Made by a program: the position numbers and the translations under genes. The notes under the pieces are model-generated. The model saw only the letters and a program-made list of their open reading frames with translations, ran no database searches and was not told the origin of the DNA. Shown one piece after another: positions 12,696 to 37,296 of a stretch of DNA of 45,906 nucleotides (positions are counted from its first letter, which is position 1; each line of letters begins with the position of its first letter). Origin of the DNA: a virus. Location: IMG/VR virus record IMGVR_UViG_3300009059_000023, positions 1 to 45,906 of that record. One strand, 5' to 3'.

Positions 12696-12724
12696 AGTAT
12701 ACCCGTAATATGGAGGTTTGTCAA
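12696..12724 (-). promoter_or_regulatory. Sigma70-type promoter of the leftward (late) operon
   Basis: On the minus strand TTGACA (12724-12719), a 17-base spacer and TATACT (12701-12696). A dyad TATACT-AG-AGTATA overlaps the -10 and start region (12688-12701) and could be an operator. The sequence TACGGGTATACTAGA is shared, but for one base, with the divergent rightward promoter. The transcript leader to the small terminase is ~30 bases. Confidence 0.8.
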
Positions 12725-12813: not shown

Positions 12814-12842
12814 TTGACAGATGCTTATTCTACGGGTATAAT
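12814..12842 (+). promoter_or_regulatory. Consensus sigma70 promoter of the rightward (early) operon
   Basis: TTGACA (12814-12819), a 17-base spacer and TATAAT (12837-12842) is a full consensus match. It is preceded by an A-rich upstream stretch (TGAAATAAAACTT) that recurs upstream of the promoter at 19149. A dyad TAATA-GA-TATTA covers 12839-12850. It faces away from the leftward promoter, with ~90 AT-rich bases between them. A match this strong suggests immediate early transcription by host polymerase. Confidence 0.85.
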
Positions 12843-13110
12843 AGATATTAAGCCCACCGGGGTTATAGCATATGTAATACAGGTTTAGGTTAATGCTTAT
12901 ATGGGTACTTATACACCCTATATCCCGCAGTTTATAAACCCCCACTCCCCCTTTAAAGCCTTTGGTAGTCGCCCGACTTCCCAAGCCTTGCCCCTCCCTT
13001 TAAAGCCTTTAAAGCTGCGGCACTATCTGGTTTACATGGCATATCTCCATAAAATGTATATGATTGTATATATATCCTAGTACCCCCCCTTGGCAGCTTG
13101 CCCACCCCCT

Positions 13111-13502
13111 GAAGTCTCTAAAGACTTCAAAAATTCTAAGTCTTTAGAGACTTAGAAAATCTTCCTAGTCTTTTAAAAGCTCCATAGAGCTTCTTAAAAG
13201 ACTAGGAGTTCTGTGAAGCCACTCCAAAGACTTTCAAAGTCTTCAATGCCCACCCCCTCTGAAGACTTTGAAAGTCTTAGAAGAGCTAACAAGTTTTCTA
13301 GTTTACAAAACTAGGGAGGCTTTGAAGCTTTTTTAAACCTTTAGGTTTACTCCAGAGACTTCCAATCTTTTCAACGACTTACAAGCTTTTTAGTCTACGA
13401 CTAATCAACCCCTCCTGAGACTTTTAAAGTCTCCTAAGTCTTTCGAGCTGCAAGGAAAATCCCGACAGGGATTCGCGCTGCTTTGAAGACTTTAAAAGTC
13501 TT
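13111..13502. repeat. Array of nested inverted repeats sharing AGACTT/AAGTCT
   Basis: Consecutive hairpins lie at 13111-13128, 13136-13155, 13164-13206 (19 bp with one bulge), 13227-13243, 13261-13278, 13298-13314, 13335-13348, 13390-13404, 13417-13433, 13458-13473 and 13486-13502. Two neighbouring pairs are also reverse complements of each other: 13112-13127 with 13138-13153, and 13227-13244 with 13261-13278. Their loops are complementary too (CTAA with TTAG). The dyad AAGACTTT-n-AAAGTCTT appears three times exactly and once as GAGACTTT-T-AAAGTCTC. No start codons or U-runs associate with them. Confidence 0.85.
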
Positions 13503-13512
13503 AGAGCCGAAC

Positions 13513-13553
13513 TTAGTATCTCCATAACCTATAAAAGGTTATGGAGATACTAA
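13513..13553 (+). repeat. Perfect 18-bp hairpin in the leader
   Basis: TTAGTATCTCCATAACCT (13513-13530) and its exact reverse complement (13536-13553) are separated by ATAAA. There is no U-run after it, so it is not a standard terminator. It lies three bases before the next, even longer hairpin. Confidence 0.9.
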
Positions 13554-13555
13554 AA

Positions 13556-13624
13556 AGTATTCCTTATTTATTAATTTAAAAAGAAGTCACTTGTGACTTT
13601 TTAAATTAATAAATAAGGAATACT
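13556..13624 (+). promoter_or_regulatory. 27-bp hairpin that sequesters a ribosome binding site
   Basis: The left arm 13556-13582 pairs perfectly with 13598-13624. Inside are a GAA bulge and GTCAC-TT-GTGAC. The right arm contains AAGGA (13615-13619), the ribosome binding site for the ATG at 13628. While folded, the RNA would hide that site, so translation probably depends on unfolding, processing or a trans factor. The arms are almost pure A/T. Confidence 0.8.
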
Positions 13625-13627
13625 ATA

Positions 13628-14062
13628 ATGGCCAAATCAAACTTCAACTCAATCGACTCAAACAAAATTGCTACGGCTCGACAAGTTTTTGCAGTGGCTA
13701 GCCACTTTGCTTCAATCAAAGCTTCCTCTCCATCGGAGAGATATGGATTGACCAAAGTCTTTAATGCGGTGCTTAATAAGCACTATAGAGACTCTGATAG
13801 CTTTATGACCCATTCTGATGTTTCAGAATGGTTTGAATGGGATTGTGTTCCAGAGCAGTTCCTTCATATGATTTCTACCAAGAAATCAAAAGCGAAAGCC
13901 AAGCCAAAGGCTTCCAAGGCTCCAAAGAAAGAAGCTAAAGCTTCAGCGAAGCCAACGGCTTCCAAGGCTCCAAAGAAAGAATCAACTTTGACTCAACGAG
14001 TTGAGGCAATGGAAGCTACTCAAGCTAAAATCTTAGAGCTTCTAGAAGCTATCGCTAAATAA
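13628..14062 (+). CDS. Histone H1-like Lys/Ala/Pro protein with C-terminal coiled coil
   Basis: The 144-residue protein is the first gene of the rightward block. Residues ~1-85 look folded (KIATARQVFAVASHFASIKA... SEWFEWDCVPEQFLHMI). Residues ~86-120 are Lys/Ala/Pro/Ser-rich with a duplicated SKAPKKE motif, like histone H1 tails or bacterial nucleoid proteins. The last ~25 form a helix (TQRVEAMEATQAKILELLEAI) fit for oligomerisation. It is framed by the hairpin leader and a strong terminator, so it is its own transcript. Its role is unknown; DNA compaction or takeover of host transcription is plausible. No family recognised. Confidence 0.8.
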   Translation: MAKSNFNSIDSNKIATARQVFAVASHFASIKASSPSERYGLTKVFNAVLNKHYRDSDSFMTHSDVSEWFEWDCVPEQFLHMISTKKSKAKAKPKASKAPKKEAKASAKPTASKAPKKESTLTQRVEAMEATQAKILELLEAIAK

Positions 14063-14070
14063 AATCTATC

Positions 14071-14098
14071 GGGAGGGCTTCGGCTCTCCCTTTTTTTT
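14071..14098 (+). terminator. Strong intrinsic terminator with UUCG loop
   Basis: GGGAGGGC-TTCG-GCTCTCCC followed by eight T. One G-U pair is in the 8-bp stem. It lies 8 bases after the stop of the histone-like gene and would end the first early transcript. Confidence 0.93.
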
Positions 14099-14144
14099 GT
14101 CTTTAATTTCTAATGGGAAAATGTTGTAGATTGCTACGAAGTTT

Positions 14145-15039: not shown

Positions 15040-15085
15040 TGTACTTATTAGTTAGTAAGTTCTTACGAACTAACTAATAAGTACA
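15040..15085 (+). repeat. Perfect 15-bp hairpin with core GTAAGTTCTTACGAAC (copy 1)
   Basis: TGTACTTATTAGTTA (15040-15054) and its exact reverse complement (15071-15085) flank the 16-base core 15055-15070. In the core GTAA, GTTC, TTAC and GAAC are ordered so that either GTAA pairs with TTAC or GTTC with GAAC, two exclusive or knotted folds. The arm ends 6 bases before the GGAG of the next gene. A second copy is at 16781. Confidence 0.9.
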
Positions 15086-15100
15086 CAATTGGAGATGCCG

Positions 15101-15715
15101 ATGTTCAATACTCACTGCAAAGCGGTTCAGGAATACTCACAGCGTAGTGCTACTAATATGTCAGATACAGTTCTAATGGTAGTGCTAAGTATCCAACAAA
15201 ACTGGCTCGGTGTTGGCGACCAGCTAACTGATGTAAGGCTAAATAAATCTGAGTCCCGATTCTTGTGGGGCAACAAAAGAAAAACATATAGCTATCTTAA
15301 ATCTAATCAGCACAAAGTATATGCTCAAGTGATGGCTGTTATCAACAGCAAACAGACAGACTTTATGAAGTCTATATCGCTAATGAATATATTCTTGAGG
15401 GTTGATGGCTTGGGTTTAGCTAAAGCTGGCTTCTGCTGCCAGTTGATTGCTGGATTGGTTGGCTGTATGGATACTCATAATATTAGAATGTATGGGCTGG
15501 ACACTAAAGACTTAGCACTAGCTAAGAATCCAAAGACCCAGAAAGGCATTGATGCTAACAATGCTAAGATAGATAAGTACATAGAGTTATGTGCTGACTA
15601 TGGCTGTGAGAATCTTTGGAACTCTTGGTGCGACTTTGTAGCTACTAAGTCTAAGCGGTGGCAAGATGGTAATCATGTATCTGAAGTACACTATACTTAC
15701 TTGACTGGAGAATAA
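15101..15715 (+). CDS. HhH-GPD-like protein, possible DNA glycosylase relative
   Basis: In this 204-residue protein, residues ~101-113 are VDGLGLAKAGFCC, a helix-hairpin-helix. It is followed by GCMDTHN with D124 in the place of the catalytic Asp of EndoIII/MutY-type glycosylases (VDTH). K108 lies in the hairpin region but not clearly at the usual catalytic Lys. The N-terminal ~100 residues are helical. The [4Fe-4S] cysteine cluster of EndoIII is not evident. ATG 15101 is chosen, 6 bases after GGAG. It could be a base-excision enzyme for modified or damaged DNA or a DNA-binding derivative. Similarity is by motif only. Confidence 0.55.
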   Translation: MFNTHCKAVQEYSQRSATNMSDTVLMVVLSIQQNWLGVGDQLTDVRLNKSESRFLWGNKRKTYSYLKSNQHKVYAQVMAVINSKQTDFMKSISLMNIFLRVDGLGLAKAGFCCQLIAGLVGCMDTHNIRMYGLDTKDLALAKNPKTQKGIDANNAKIDKYIELCADYGCENLWNSWCDFVATKSKRWQDGNHVSEVHYTYLTGE

Positions 15716-16780: not shown

Positions 16781-16846
16781 CAATTACTTAATGACTTATA
16801 AGTTAGTAAGTTCTTACGAACTAACTTATAAGACATTAAGTTATTG
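16781..16846 (+). repeat. 25-bp hairpin with core GTAAGTTCTTACGAAC (copy 2)
   Basis: Arms 16781-16805 and 16822-16846 pair with two mismatches around the same 16-base core (16806-16821) as at 15055. In the 12 arm bases next to the core the two copies differ at one position only (ACTTATTAGTTA versus ACTTATAAGTTA), and the opposite arm carries the compensating change. There is no U-run. It separates the small-gene run from the next promoter. Confidence 0.9.
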
Positions 16847-28950: not shown

Positions 28951-29045
28951 ATATACTACAGTGTACATTATGTGCATATAAGTGTACATTATAGTCTATA
29001 ATGTACATTATGTGCATATAAGTGTACATTATATACTACAGTGTA
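28951..29045. repeat. 20/40-bp tandem palindrome array at the convergent junction
   Basis: Four 20-bp units with consensus RTGTACATTATRTRCWTAYA follow one another from 28961. The two 40-bp halves are nearly identical (a 32-bp exact repeat at 28962-28993 and 29002-29033). The outer sequence ATATACTACAGTGTA occurs at both ends (28951-28965 and 29031-29045). The centre holds a perfect palindrome, TGTACATTATAG-T-CTATAATGTACA (28983-29007). It lies where plus- and minus-strand operons meet. It has no GC stem or U-run, so it is not a normal terminator. It could be an operator, a replication-related site or a packaging-related mark. Confidence 0.88.
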
Positions 29046-30796: not shown

Positions 30797-31159
30797 TTAG
30801 TAGCACCACATTACAGGAGCTTTGTCAGCTCCGACAATCCTGCTATCCACATGGATGAAAGTACCAGCGATTCCAATACCATTAAATCCCAGTTTGATAG
30901 CTTCTTGTACAATTTTGTATCTTTCATTTCCGTTACGTGCTCTAATGTCTGCTGCAATACCTTGGGCATGAGTTCCTGCTTTCTCCTTACGTTTTTCGAT
31001 AGAGTGGTTTTTACTTCTATATCCACTCGTTATGATAAACGGGAAGCCACATGCCTCCCGCAGTTTATCGAGTTTATGAATAAAGTCAACTGACATTTCA
31101 TTCTCGTTCGTTTCTTGACAATTAAAGTCTTCTAGTTTAAAGTATTTAAATTCGTTCAT
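30797..31159 (-). CDS. M15 family peptidase, likely endolysin
   Basis: The 120-residue single-domain enzyme has the zinc-binding motif of M15-type D-Ala or L-Ala-D-Glu peptidases: H64 and D71 (THAQGIAAD), and H103 (FIHVDSR). YFKLEDFNC and ITSGYRSKNHS are further family features. No signal peptide, so it depends on the neighbouring holin. It cleaves peptide bonds in peptidoglycan at lysis. The start overlaps the end of the large virion protein gene (ATGA). Confidence 0.88.
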   Translation of the reverse strand: MNEFKYFKLEDFNCQETNENEMSVDFIHKLDKLREACGFPFIITSGYRSKNHSIEKRKEKAGTHAQGIAADIRARNGNERYKIVQEAIKLGFNGIGIAGTFIHVDSRIVGADKAPVMWCY

Positions 31160-34100
31160 AGTCCTAAGTCCTTTAATGTGCCAACAAATATTTTGCTCTT
31201 AAATTCATTACCCTTGTATTTGCTTATCCAGTCTCTAAGCTTTGCATACTCATCAGGAAGAACAGAGTTTATTTGTCTTTCTAGTTTGCTAAAGTCGTAT
31301 GTGTCTGTAACGTAAACTTTGTCGCCTTCTACAGTTACTCCTCCTCCACCTACAGAAAATGCTGCTTCTTCTGTGGGTGTAATGTCACCAGACTTCATAC
31401 GAGCTACTAAGTTGTCACGCTTTCTTTGCGCTGCGCTACCTACCTGCGCTCTAACATTAGATTCTTTTAAGTTGTAGTCGCCATAGTCAATAGTGCTTTT
31501 GTTTTTCTTTAAAGCATTAGCAGCAGCGAAGCCTAGCGCCTCAACAACTTGTGGGTTATAGTCTTCTTCTGTTTTATCTCCAGCAAGCGGGTTAAAGAAT
31601 GCAATAAGGTTTTTAGCTACTTGAGATTGTGAAGCATTATAAAAACCTTTTAGCGTATCTACAAGACTTTCTTGGTCTTCCATTTGCTTTTCAGATTCTA
31701 TCTCAATATCTCTAGGCTTAAACTCTATTGCTGGTAGTTTTATTTCTTTAGGTTCTTCTGTAGTTCCCGCAGTGTTTTCTGCTGTACGCCCTTCAGAACT
31801 AAAATCTACGTCTGGCATCTTAACATCTGACAGGTCAGGTGCATCAGGTGTGTTAGCTTCACGCACCTGCTCCATAGTCATGTCGCCCATAACGGATGTA
31901 GTCTTAGGCTCTGCCGTGGTTCCTGCTGTGTTCTCTGCTGTACGACCTCTAGAACTAAAGTCGGAACTTACTAGTTTTTTTAGCGCTGAAAGTGTACGGC
32001 CTGTAGCACTGCTAACAGTTTCTTTAACGTCATCAAATGTTTCTAATACTGTTCTTTGTACATCTTTAGAAACATCTGACAGTGTATCTAAAGTAGATTC
32101 TCCAGCTTCTGACATAGCACGAGCCTTTTCTACTACAACGTCTTTTATATTAGTAGCTTTTTCAGGCAACCCAATAAGAATACTTTCTTTAGCTTTTTCA
32201 ATTTCTTTAATTGGTTCTACCTTTTTAACTTCTTCTGCTTGAGCTGTAAACATATCAGGAGTTTTTTCGCTAAGCTTTAACTCTTGACCCTCAAAAATAA
32301 CATCAATATTTTCAATTTCATTTAATCTAGCTATTTCTTCTAGTGCAACTCCTTGGTCAAGAGCAATTTGGCTTAGTGTGTCTCCACCCTTAACAATGTA
32401 GCCACCCTTAGCAGCGCCGTGTCTTGAGTCTTTAGGGTCAAACGCCCGAGCAGTAACAGACTTAAACTGTTGTGGTTTAAAAAGAATATATGAATAAGGG
32501 GCTTCACCTACAAAACCTTGCTCAACTTCGTTGTTGTACTTAATAGAATCAAAACCTAAGCCTTCAAGAAGATTTCTAAACTCTGTATTTATTTGATTTC
32601 TTTTTAATTCCTGACGATAGAAACCAACAATATCTGTAGCTTCGCCTACTGGAGGGTCTAAAAATAAACCTTCAAATTCTTCAGAGCGCTTTGTCAATTC
32701 AGCAAGTTTAGACTGTTGTTTATTGGTTAGCTTTATACCCCTACGTGCAATCTCAGGCTCAAAGTATTCATCCCAGCCGCCACCGGGAGTAAGAATTCTT
32801 TCAGCCTCCCAGCCCGGAAGGTCTGTTTCAATAAGCAAAGGATTCCTAACATCTATGTAGCCAGCATTCATTGTAATAGGTTTAATTTTAAGAAGTTCTT
32901 CTCGCTCTACTGCTTCTCCACCAAAGTATCCATATTCATCAATAGGCATGTCATCTTCAATTCGAGTAGTGCTGCTTAATACTGCTTCTTCTTCTTTTAG
33001 TAAGTCTGGGTTACCAAACATTTCACCAGAGCGTTCACGAGTAAGAGACTTTGCATCTGCTGCTAACTTAAATTCTTGTTTAGCTTTAGTGTTAGGAAGT
33101 CCACGTATAGCAATAGTTGTTGCTGCGCCTTCAGTACCTACATGAACACCTATTTCTCTAGCAAAAGAAAAGGCAAGAAAAGACTGAGCTTCTTGAAAAC
33201 TTGTTTCTGTGCGAAAAACCATAGAAGGCTCTATAGATTTTTCACGATACTTTTTAATAGCTGCGAGCCTTTCATTAGCACTTAAAAGTTCGGGGTACTT
33301 GTCATCAACAGTATCTTTTATTTTAGGAGCTTTAAAAGTACTGAAATTAATATCGCCTTCTGCTGCTAATTTAATAAGTACATTTTCTGCAATTTTATCT
33401 CCGCCCATTTCTGACAAAGTATCCATTCTCATTCTAGCTGAACTTGAAATAAAATCGTGCAGGTTATTAAATGTAGGGTCATCAAACTTTTGTTTTTGTG
33501 CAGCAGCTACTTCTTCAGGGGTGACATTAATTTTAACTTTATTATAAGCCTGTTTTAAAGAACGAACCATGTCAGGAACCATATATTCGATAGTTCCTTC
33601 AGGGTCTACTTTATTTTTGTTTTGCTGAATAATTCTCAAAGCTTTACGATGTTCTTTGGTATATCCCATAGCTTTTTGAGCATTAGCCCAATTAGTAATT
33701 GCTTCCTTTTCGTTTGTACTTTCAATAGCTTTTTTCCATTCAGGAAGTTTTTCAAGCTCTTCAATACTTTTAATATCTTTTTTAATTTCACTATGAACCA
33801 TAGCGTCTACAAACTCAAGATGACTCAAGTTATAAAAATCTAAAACGCCTTCCATTTCTAATTCTTCTAAGCCTTCTGATATTCTTGCAGAAGTTAAATT
33901 TAAAGTGTCTTCATTAAAATAGTTATCTGTAGCTTTAGATAAATTTTCAGCCACTTCGTCATTAAACTCAACAGGTTTTTTAGAAGCTATCTTAGGGCCT
34001 AATGTTCCGAGTTTATTTCCCATAAGGTCAGAAGCTGTAGTTGTAATTGCTTTAGCTCCAATTTTAACAAGTCCACCCGCCACGAAACCAGCGGCAGGTA

Positions 34101-37100
34101 CCTCTTTATCAAACTCTGGGATTAAACCACCAAAAATATCTTCTTGTGCTTTACGTAAGCTTCTACGATAATGAATAACATCTTTTTCGCCGATTAGTGT
34201 TTTACCCATATAAGTTCCAGACAAAACAGGAACTTTACCGCCCAGCGTAGGAATAATTCCTTGCTGGATTAAGTTTAAAGCATCTGAACTTGCTGGGCCA
34301 AACGGCAAAGTAGCGTAGGACAGGGCGCTGCCAGAGTACTTTGCAGAAGTTTTAGCACGATTAAAGCTATCAAGCAGCAATCCATTGCCGCCCCAACGAG
34401 CTACAGAGTTATAAAGAACTTCATCTAAGTCTTTGCCTCTTTCGCTTTCTCCATTAGTTCGCAGGTAGTTAGTCCATCGAGACATGCCCGTCATAATTAA
34501 AGCAGCAGGTATAAGCTTAGCGCCGTTACGTACAGGAGCCTTAGTGAGAGACTTAGCAGCCCCTTTAAGCACAGTGTTTGTGAACGCTGCCGGATAGCTA
34601 AGCAATTGAAACAATATAGCAGTTTTAGGATTAGAGTAAAGCAACGGCTTTAGTCCTGACATTGCAGTAGGTTGCAAAACTATAGAGTTTGTATAACGTG
34701 CAACGCCCCCTAAGATGTTTGTTTTATAAAAATCACTATCAGTTTTAGCGCCTGCTTTATGCCAGTCAACTGCCTTTTTATAATCAATGCCTAGCTCAGC
34801 TAACTCACCAGCTCTGACTTGCATATTTTTATCTAGCTTGCGGTTTCCATGGCTTGCAAGTTTAGCAATGTTATCTGAAATCATATGCTTTCCGCTAGCA
34901 AAAGAAGTAGCCTGTACAAACTTAGTCCATTGGTCGAGCATGTTTAAGCGAAAGAATTTGTTACTAGCATTCTGCAATCGTTCATTTACTAAAGCATCTC
35001 CAGATAATCTATCGCCTACTTGAGCCATTGCTTGGTCTACGTGAATACTAAACTGTCGCATTTCAGACATAGCTTCTTTTACGGTTAAGCCATGATTAGT
35101 AACTAATTTAGTTTCTAAGTCTTTTGTAACTCCCTTAAACGAAAACTCAATAGCTTCGCCTAATCCTTTAACTGAGTTACGCACACCTGCCTTGCCTATG
35201 TTTAAGAATACTTCTGTTAAACTTGAAAGAGTTGCCAAGCCCAACATAGATACTCTGTTTACAAAACTATAAGTATCTACCACATCTTGAGCAGTCTTTC
35301 CATATCTGTCTAAGCCTTCGCCGGTAGCCGTGCGGTAAAGCATTTCAATTTGTTTTTCTTGCTTAGGTGAAAAAGTCTCGCCTTTTTCTTCAAGCTCTTT
35401 GCGGATGCGGTTTATGTAAAAACCTTTAAACTGGTCAAAGTTGTTTACGCCTAGTACACGGTGCTTAGCAATAGATTTACCAGCTTGAAAAGTATATGCG
35501 TGTAAGGAACCTAAAATGTCATCGTTTAAAAACTCTTGAAAATCTGCATCATCTCCAAGGTCGTTTAGCTTTCGTTTAGCTGAAAAAAAATAACCGCCGC
35601 TTCCACCAGTATCTACTTGATTCTGAACATCTAACATAGAATCAACAGTACGTCTTGCATCACCTTTAGTCATTTTTCCTTTAGACTGAAACAAGTCCAT
35701 TAAGCCTTTCTTGTTCTTTTCAATTGCAGAACGACTCCACATACGAGGAACGTAATTTTCAACCAACTCATCAATAACTCCAATCTCTTGCAGTTGTACA
35801 CCCATGTCAGCATACAAAGACTTAACGCCTGCGGCTGCTGAGTTAATAGCTTTGTTTGTAGCAGCGTCAAAGTTTTTATGCTTTAAAGGTTTAGAGCTAC
35901 GAACAGACAACATAAGGGCTGCGTTCATATCTTCAGCTAAAGTACCTTTTGCGGAGTGTAATGATATGTCTTCTACAATAGCTCGGAAGCGGTCATTAAA
36001 CTTACCCGTTACTTCGCGCTGTACTTCAGATAAATCTTTTTCTACAATTGTATCTTGTACTTTAAATTTAATTCCAAACTCATAACTTAGTTTCTTTTGA
36101 AGTTGTGCTGCTGTACCAGAAAGTTTAGCAATCGGCGATAACACTCCTGCTGCTTTTCCAAAAAAGTTCCCGCTTAAATTAGATGCAATAGTATGCAAAC
36201 CTTGTTTAACTCTACTAGTTACACCTTCTGCTGTTTCTTCAGCATCCGCAGCAGCACGAATAATCCGCAGTATTTCTTCTCGTGTTTTTTCACCGCCACC
36301 TAAATCATCTGCAAACTTTTTAGCTGCTGCGTTAAGCGAATCATTTCCGCTTACAACTTTGGCCGTTGCCCCTTCAGGGCCGCTTAGTCGTAAAGCCTCA
36401 GAAATAACAGCGTTGCCAGACGAGGGAATAAACTCTCCGTCTAAAGCTTCATCATACAGCGCAGCGCCTACTTCTTTAGAAGGTTCTTTGCGAGGCTCCG
36501 AAGCAGCTCTAAAATACTTGTTGCCAATTTTAGAACCTGCCGCATATAAACCCATGCCTGAAAGCGCACCTACACCTACGCCTAAGCCCGTTTCCGCTAG
36601 GCTATACTCATCTTTCTGACCAATGGCTAAGTCAAGCTCTTGAGCTACGTGTGCTCCTGCACCGCCATATATAGAACCCATGCCTGCGACAGCCTTATAA
36701 GGGTTAGAAGTATTAGCAGCTTTAGTAGCTTTGATAGCATTAGCTAAGACACTTCGTGCGCCCTGTTGCGCTACTTTACGTGCGCCTACACCTGCAACAG
36801 CAGAAGCTCCGCCGGTAGCAGGGGCAGTAAAAAGAGTTCCAAGAACTCCAATAGTTTCAGGATTAAAAAGTACATCAGCACCGTAGTCGCCTATAGCAGA
36901 AGCCCACTCACCTACACCTGAAAGCTCAGCAGCGTTAAACCTATCTTGCATTAAACGATAAGCTGCCTTAACATCTTCTGGAGCATCTTTGAGTATAGTA
37001 GCTTTGTTTATCGGAGAGCCAATGCGAGCTACGTCATCCCGCATAAACTCAGGAATGTCTGTTTGTTTTCCTATTGTTGCTTGGTCAATTAAAGCTGAAC

Positions 37101-37296
37101 CTAAGCCACGATGCTCTGACAAGTAGTCGGTTACTTTATCAAAGGCTACTTGGACTGAGGCATCCTGCTCAAAGTCAGTAACTGAATAATTTTTAGGTAC
37201 AAAAGATTTATCAGCATTTAATTTTTCAGCTTCTGTTAAATATGAAGATGGAGCATTGTCGCTTTCGTTAAGGTAATCACTAAAAAGTTTTGACAT
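31156..37296 (-). CDS. Giant internal virion protein with ART-like and LysM domains
   Basis: The 2046-residue ejection-type protein has hydrophobic glycine-rich segments at ~140-260 (GLGVGVGALSGMGLYAAG) that may insert in the membrane, followed by a long helical body. Residues ~1350-1620 look like an ADP-ribosyltransferase (polyvalent ART) domain. EIGVHVGTEGAAT starts it, GYIDVRNPLLIETDLPGWEA follows, and it ends LLEGLGFDSIKYNNEVE and SYILFKPQQFKSV. A LysM (GGDTLSQIALDQGV ... GQELKL) is at ~1630-1675. A repeat region with two RTAENTAGTT copies follows. Likely roles: DNA ejection channel, cell-wall contact and possibly host modification. The activity is inferred. Confidence 0.75.
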   Translation of the reverse strand: MSKLFSDYLNESDNAPSSYLTEAEKLNADKSFVPKNYSVTDFEQDASVQVAFDKVTDYLSEHRGLGSALIDQATIGKQTDIPEFMRDDVARIGSPINKATILKDAPEDVKAAYRLMQDRFNAAELSGVGEWASAIGDYGADVLFNPETIGVLGTLFTAPATGGASAVAGVGARKVAQQGARSVLANAIKATKAANTSNPYKAVAGMGSIYGGAGAHVAQELDLAIGQKDEYSLAETGLGVGVGALSGMGLYAAGSKIGNKYFRAASEPRKEPSKEVGAALYDEALDGEFIPSSGNAVISEALRLSGPEGATAKVVSGNDSLNAAAKKFADDLGGGEKTREEILRIIRAAADAEETAEGVTSRVKQGLHTIASNLSGNFFGKAAGVLSPIAKLSGTAAQLQKKLSYEFGIKFKVQDTIVEKDLSEVQREVTGKFNDRFRAIVEDISLHSAKGTLAEDMNAALMLSVRSSKPLKHKNFDAATNKAINSAAAGVKSLYADMGVQLQEIGVIDELVENYVPRMWSRSAIEKNKKGLMDLFQSKGKMTKGDARRTVDSMLDVQNQVDTGGSGGYFFSAKRKLNDLGDDADFQEFLNDDILGSLHAYTFQAGKSIAKHRVLGVNNFDQFKGFYINRIRKELEEKGETFSPKQEKQIEMLYRTATGEGLDRYGKTAQDVVDTYSFVNRVSMLGLATLSSLTEVFLNIGKAGVRNSVKGLGEAIEFSFKGVTKDLETKLVTNHGLTVKEAMSEMRQFSIHVDQAMAQVGDRLSGDALVNERLQNASNKFFRLNMLDQWTKFVQATSFASGKHMISDNIAKLASHGNRKLDKNMQVRAGELAELGIDYKKAVDWHKAGAKTDSDFYKTNILGGVARYTNSIVLQPTAMSGLKPLLYSNPKTAILFQLLSYPAAFTNTVLKGAAKSLTKAPVRNGAKLIPAALIMTGMSRWTNYLRTNGESERGKDLDEVLYNSVARWGGNGLLLDSFNRAKTSAKYSGSALSYATLPFGPASSDALNLIQQGIIPTLGGKVPVLSGTYMGKTLIGEKDVIHYRRSLRKAQEDIFGGLIPEFDKEVPAAGFVAGGLVKIGAKAITTTASDLMGNKLGTLGPKIASKKPVEFNDEVAENLSKATDNYFNEDTLNLTSARISEGLEELEMEGVLDFYNLSHLEFVDAMVHSEIKKDIKSIEELEKLPEWKKAIESTNEKEAITNWANAQKAMGYTKEHRKALRIIQQNKNKVDPEGTIEYMVPDMVRSLKQAYNKVKINVTPEEVAAAQKQKFDDPTFNNLHDFISSSARMRMDTLSEMGGDKIAENVLIKLAAEGDINFSTFKAPKIKDTVDDKYPELLSANERLAAIKKYREKSIEPSMVFRTETSFQEAQSFLAFSFAREIGVHVGTEGAATTIAIRGLPNTKAKQEFKLAADAKSLTRERSGEMFGNPDLLKEEEAVLSSTTRIEDDMPIDEYGYFGGEAVEREELLKIKPITMNAGYIDVRNPLLIETDLPGWEAERILTPGGGWDEYFEPEIARRGIKLTNKQQSKLAELTKRSEEFEGLFLDPPVGEATDIVGFYRQELKRNQINTEFRNLLEGLGFDSIKYNNEVEQGFVGEAPYSYILFKPQQFKSVTARAFDPKDSRHGAAKGGYIVKGGDTLSQIALDQGVALEEIARLNEIENIDVIFEGQELKLSEKTPDMFTAQAEEVKKVEPIKEIEKAKESILIGLPEKATNIKDVVVEKARAMSEAGESTLDTLSDVSKDVQRTVLETFDDVKETVSSATGRTLSALKKLVSSDFSSRGRTAENTAGTTAEPKTTSVMGDMTMEQVREANTPDAPDLSDVKMPDVDFSSEGRTAENTAGTTEEPKEIKLPAIEFKPRDIEIESEKQMEDQESLVDTLKGFYNASQSQVAKNLIAFFNPLAGDKTEEDYNPQVVEALGFAAANALKKNKSTIDYGDYNLKESNVRAQVGSAAQRKRDNLVARMKSGDITPTEEAAFSVGGGGVTVEGDKVYVTDTYDFSKLERQINSVLPDEYAKLRDWISKYKGNEFKSKIFVGTLKDLGL
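31756..31966 (-). repeat. Internal duplication in the giant virion protein gene
   Basis: Two copies, ~31756-31808 and ~31914-31966, both encode DFSS(R/E)GRTAENTAGTT followed by (A/E)EPK. Synonymous differences separate them. They mark a disordered linker after the LysM. Confidence 0.75.

Follow-up and report, generated by a model that had tools for sequence, protein, structure and literature searches.

How is the first early gene of this marine phage (gene 1) translated, when its ribosome binding site lies inside the longest inverted repeat found in the window, that is, the whole 45.9-kb stretch of viral DNA analysed here? Because the site is locked in a very long hairpin in the predicted fold, gene 1 probably cannot be translated until the RNA is cut or unfolded.

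The terminal hairpin and the ribosome binding site

The terminal hairpin (13556–13624, + strand) is formed by a perfect 28-bp inverted repeat, 13556–13583 and 13597–13624, with a spacer of 13 nt. The original prediction had described a perfect stem of 27 bp at this place; the stem is present, and one pair longer. Its minimum-energy RNA fold contains 24 bp, a 3-nt 5′ bulge (AAG), 7 bp and a 4-nt loop, with an energy of −32.6 kcal/mol for the hairpin alone; this and all other folding figures given below are predictions. Just upstream, the adjacent perfect 18-bp stem of the original prediction was located at 13513–13553 (+), with the arms 13513–13530 and 13536–13553 and the loop ATAAA. For the 251-nt surroundings, the folding energy is −93 kcal/mol, compared with −42.5 ± 4.2 kcal/mol in dinucleotide shuffles (z = −12, 0/200). 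Reading the hairpins as intrinsic terminators was rejected, since no T tract directly follows the stem ends at 13624, 15085 or 16846.

The Shine-Dalgarno sequence AAGGA (13615–13619, +) is in the right arm, pairs with 13561–13565 and stands 8 nt before the ATG at 13628, at the same positions as had been predicted. Its unpaired probability was predicted to be about 0.001, and about 24 kcal/mol (24.4) would be needed to open it, so the predicted fold holds a ribosome site inside a stable RNA stem, as is looked for in RNase III-activated control. Of 23 distinct leaders, 22 gave a probability below 0.001, and only in L028 was the site less buried (0.36). For comparison, the median was 0.51 for the Shine-Dalgarno sites of 17 homologues without this leader and 0.48 for 18 other early genes of the window. 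With the RNA 5′ end placed at 13598–13614, the site was predicted to be 0.72–0.83 unpaired, and the remnant duplex of 11–15 bp had an energy of −12.5 to −16.7 kcal/mol.

An internal promoter that frees the site would have made the hairpin irrelevant, as the original prediction had pointed out; the promoter scan of the window found none that starts RNA inside the stem. The only candidate (TTTAAA-18-TATAAT) was rejected, since its −10 element sits on the ATG, the start would fall downstream, and TATAAT is not kept in relatives.

Relatives and covariation

Through a search with gene 1, 71 viral contigs were gathered. In the closer group (L004–L042), all leaders of sufficient length retain both hairpins with differing stem sequences, and the distant homologues (L043–L074) keep the gene 1 protein behind leaders of other kinds. 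Paired changes of this type had been suggested as a check on the hairpin. Compensatory changes keep both stems in about 22 distinct relatives, and therefore the stems are not chance products.

Among 22 distinct sequences, 94.5% of cells were paired, compared with 77.1% in shuffled data, and both-side changes occurred in 23 of 29 pairs; 0 of 500 shuffles reached the observed values, in a test that ignores kinship among the sequences. Controls with slid pairing gave 38–56% of cells paired. On the pairs of the covariation test, both-side changes were counted in 101 cells versus 7 cells with one-side G-U changes, and the stems are nearly pure Watson-Crick, with about 2% G-U. This scarcity of G-U is unusual for RNA stems and fits template switching or a constraint at the DNA level. 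During DNA replication, template switching can both generate perfect arms and preserve them (PMC8794818), and for this reason the covariation may overstate selection on the RNA. Folding energy of the whole leader was also tried as a strand test and was uninformative, as the minus strand folds equally well or better.

A hairpin family in the early region

The terminal hairpin shares its design with further hairpins: a long variable stem (15–34 bp), a 3–4-nt 5′ RAG bulge and a short apical stem-loop. In the window, a second copy is located at 15040–15085 (+), in the gap upstream of the gene at 15101 and with the next Shine-Dalgarno outside the stem, and a third at 16781–16846 (+), between early genes. 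A scan of six genomes of 45.9–49.7 kb detected two to three copies in each, 16 in total; all are oriented in the sense of the early genes, and no copy was detected outside the early region. In G001 (L008) the leader copy was missed by the scan owing to a bulge but appeared in the comparison of the hairpin family, which brings its total to four and the range to 2–4 per genome. The copies vary in the stem and keep the asymmetric top. About 12–15 pairs below the apical bulge, an A-A or G-A mismatch is present in several members and is possibly related to cleavage.

RNase III requires a stem of about two helical turns. The stem before the apical stem is mostly 27–34 bp in leader copies and mostly 17–24 bp in the others, long enough for the enzyme, and sense-strand hairpins recur between early genes as they do in T7. 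Most non-leader copies leave the next ribosome site free, and L059 and L060 carry a hairpin of this type upstream of gene 1 with the Shine-Dalgarno exposed. Processing is therefore probably the shared role of the family, with burial of the ribosome site added at the first gene; occlusion of the ribosome site as the sole role is unlikely.

The palindromes might instead act in the DNA, as an origin, a cruciform or a protein-binding array, with template switching keeping the arms perfect. Such an element would account for the near absence of G-U pairs and for the density of inverted repeats in one non-coding gap after the divergent promoters described below. A cumulative GC skew minimum at about 13–14 kb would also agree with it, but this skew tracks the switch from one coding strand to the other. 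A DNA element would explain less well why the asymmetric top is only in the sense orientation in 16 of 16 copies, why extra copies stand between genes and why the Shine-Dalgarno is covered systematically. Modest strand evidence also comes from the mismatches, which on the + strand are G-U more often than A-C (19 versus 7 in one count, 6 versus 4 in the count of the hairpin family). We consider action in the DNA unlikely.

A larger structured leader and its promoters

The original prediction of a buried ribosome site holds in the predicted fold, and the burial is conserved in the clade, but the prediction was incomplete, because a larger leader ends in this hairpin. A sigma70-type promoter (TTGACA-17-TATAAT) was found at 12814–12842 (+), with its −35 and −10 elements present in 27 of 27 relatives examined and a distance to the ATG of 614–829 nt in relatives. 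A divergent sigma70-type promoter (TTGACA-17-TATACT, 12696–12724, −) faces the terminase and structural genes. From the position of the first promoter, the structured 5′ leader RNA would extend over 12848–13627 (+); in relatives it measures about 580–800 nt.

The leader contains a conserved core (CTGGTTTACAT ... TGTATATATATCC ... CTTGCCCACCCC) at 12995–13107 (+). Behind it, all on the + strand, follow a hairpin with 16-bp arms (13112–13153), one with the loop GCTCCATAGAGCT (13163–13207), one with arms of about 21–24 bp (13222–13283), CTAGTTT-ACA-AAACTAG (13298–13314), whose seven pairs are invariant in 20 sequences, the covarying TTAGTC-TAC-GACTAA (13390–13404) and GAGACTTTTAAAGTCTC (13417–13433). 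Several of these hairpins have covarying stems. A few matches to the short CTAG pattern were unrelated sequences. A small ORF in the core was rejected, as relatives such as L022 lack its ATG. The motif TCTATC/TTCTATT, often with a small hairpin, recurs within the leader and after gene 1 (14062–14100 in the window, and the intergenic gaps of relatives). Five contigs (L086, L089, L090, L093 and L109) stop 113–264 nt past the CTAG hairpin, several of them in or near the terminal hairpin region; the assembly was probably interrupted there by long perfect inverted repeats.

No Rfam family, GOLLD and ROOL included, matched the leader at the gathering threshold, and a relaxed threshold gave only sub-threshold matches to generic hairpins. 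In cultured phages, nothing resembling the leader or the hairpin was found.

Such a leader could be a large structured non-coding RNA of the phage with its own function as a scaffold, a host-factor sponge or in packaging, released at the terminal hairpin. Its length (about 580–800 nt), its many conserved hairpins and the lack of an Rfam family would suit this, and so would the conservation of the core, whose identity to the window is higher than that of gene 1 in eight of the nine relatives tested (L040, for instance, with 0.96 versus 0.72; the exception is L008, 0.92 versus 0.94). However, gene 1 follows in every contig with the core pattern that continues far enough, so the RNA may not be independent of the gene, and the hairpins in the middle part of the leader vary in number and length among relatives. 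We consider this reading unlikely.

It is also rather doubtful that the leader works in the manner of HK022 put, as a cis-acting antitermination or anti-pausing RNA whose hairpins bind the host RNA polymerase, so that early transcription passes terminators and Rho and the burial of the Shine-Dalgarno is secondary. Among the predicted unpaired bases of 12848–13627, C is abundant and G scarce (91 C, 16 G), as in Rho-binding RNA, and a long untranslated leader of this kind would be Rho-prone. The hairpins recur along the early region, the two-hairpin layout recalls put, and a strong terminator-like site lies after gene 1 (14071–14098). This site is missing in some relatives, though, and we rejected it as a conserved part of the locus. 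The put RNA is about 70 nt long, has bulged stems and lies near early promoters (PMC9378689), whereas the present leader has long stems that vary and are nearly perfect, and about 670 nt separate its terminal hairpin pair from the promoter.

Gene 1 and the phage context

Gene 1 (13628–14062, +) encodes 144 aa, with a conserved N-terminal domain of about 80 aa, a Lys/Ala/Pro-rich linker and a predicted C-terminal helix. It had no Pfam match above the cut-off and no PHROG, and structure prediction gave a poor model, unfit for structure searching. The original prediction had called the protein histone-like; this name came from composition only, and with no histone-like or DNA-binding Pfam or PHROG family matched we do not retain it. 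No homologue was found in cultured phages, nor in bacterial genomes, which were searched for a clue to the host. Autoregulation, with the Lys-rich protein regulating its own translation by binding to the hairpin, would explain a basic protein beside a dedicated hairpin, but it is very unlikely, since the uncut hairpin should be silent even without a repressor, the homologues L043–L074 keep the protein under other leaders, and L059 and L060 have the hairpin type with an open ribosome site.

The terminase is 63–68% identical to those of the pelagiphages HTVC115P, HTVC103P and HTVC104P and about 46–50% to those of HMO-2011-type phages. In HTVC115P, the isolate with the closest terminase, the corresponding place is an A+T-rich non-coding gap, and the parts of the sequence compared contain no such hairpins. 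For N4-type hairpin promoters, the phage RNA polymerase family PF00940 gave no match, and its control also gave no match anywhere. A 2046-aa ORF (31156–37296, −) matches a PHROG endolysin family and has a LysM domain, and is apparently a large virion-associated lysis protein; two large late ORFs had no matches. A repeat-rich inverted repeat (TGTACATTAT units) is located at 28985–29045, near the convergence of the coding strands.

Proposed mechanism

Conserved pairing, conserved burial of the Shine-Dalgarno and sense-only recurrence in the early region are established by the comparison of sequences. We propose, with a probability of about 0.5, that the hairpins are RNase III-type processing signals in the early RNA and that cleavage of the first copy also frees the ribosome site of gene 1. 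Early RNA would be transcribed from the sigma70-type promoter near 12842 and open with a leader of about 780 nt. Uncut, it would be nearly untranslatable, as the last hairpin pairs with the gene 1 Shine-Dalgarno. The recurrent hairpins that punctuate the early region would serve as double-strand processing signals for RNase III; no gene for this enzyme was detected in the window (the controls worked), so the enzyme would be that of the host. A cut in the stem would place the 5′ end of the gene 1 mRNA in the right arm, leaving the short remnant duplex over the Shine-Dalgarno; its shedding or degradation could then open translation, with the leader separated from the mRNA. Cleavage by RNase III is consistent with the lengths of the stems, with the way the hairpins recur between genes and with the known precedents. 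Constitutive processing alone would not make a regulated switch.

More tentatively, we might speculate that uncultured marine phages possess a new class of large structured RNA, to which this leader belongs; it would be the first product of infection, be cut at the terminal hairpin, and combine an action of its own with the gating of the first early protein.

If the proposed processing is true, it is RNA cleavage and not promoter strength that gates the first early protein in these marine phages, and their long structured leader is one that the RNA library searched (Rfam) does not contain. The hairpin family predicts processing sites at named positions, which can be tested. The scarcity of G-U makes the locus well suited to the question of what preserves long perfect stems in RNA: selection, template switching, or both.

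Comparison with known systems

The leader of phage lambda N has an RNase III processing hairpin just upstream of the ribosome site of an early gene. The putative processing hairpin described here has a similar position, but its leader is much longer and gene 1 matches no family. With the put RNA of HK022 (PMC9378689), the leader has in common that stem-loops lie in early phage leader RNA, while the terminal pair differs in its span of about 112 nt, its distance from the promoter and its near-perfect stems. GOLLD and ROOL, large ornate RNAs (PMC12286853), are likewise long structured RNAs outside protein-coding sequence; the leader matched neither at either threshold.

There is a functional likeness to E. 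coli adhE and phage lambda cIII, in which the ribosome binding site is reported to be occluded until RNase III cuts (PMC5371410). Here, too, the predicted RNA structure occludes the ribosome site and double-strand cleavage could open it, but the cleavage is itself a prediction, and a very long near-perfect stem ends a conserved leader of 600–800 nt. RNase III sites are present in lambda and T7 RNA (PMC5371410), and the T7 site R1.1, which lies between early genes, is a 60-nt hairpin whose internal loop is asymmetric (PMC6121014). As in T7, the hairpins recur between early genes and have an asymmetric unpaired element in the stem; this element is a 3–4-nt one-sided bulge instead of the 4/5 internal loop of R1.1, and the first copy here also covers a ribosome site.
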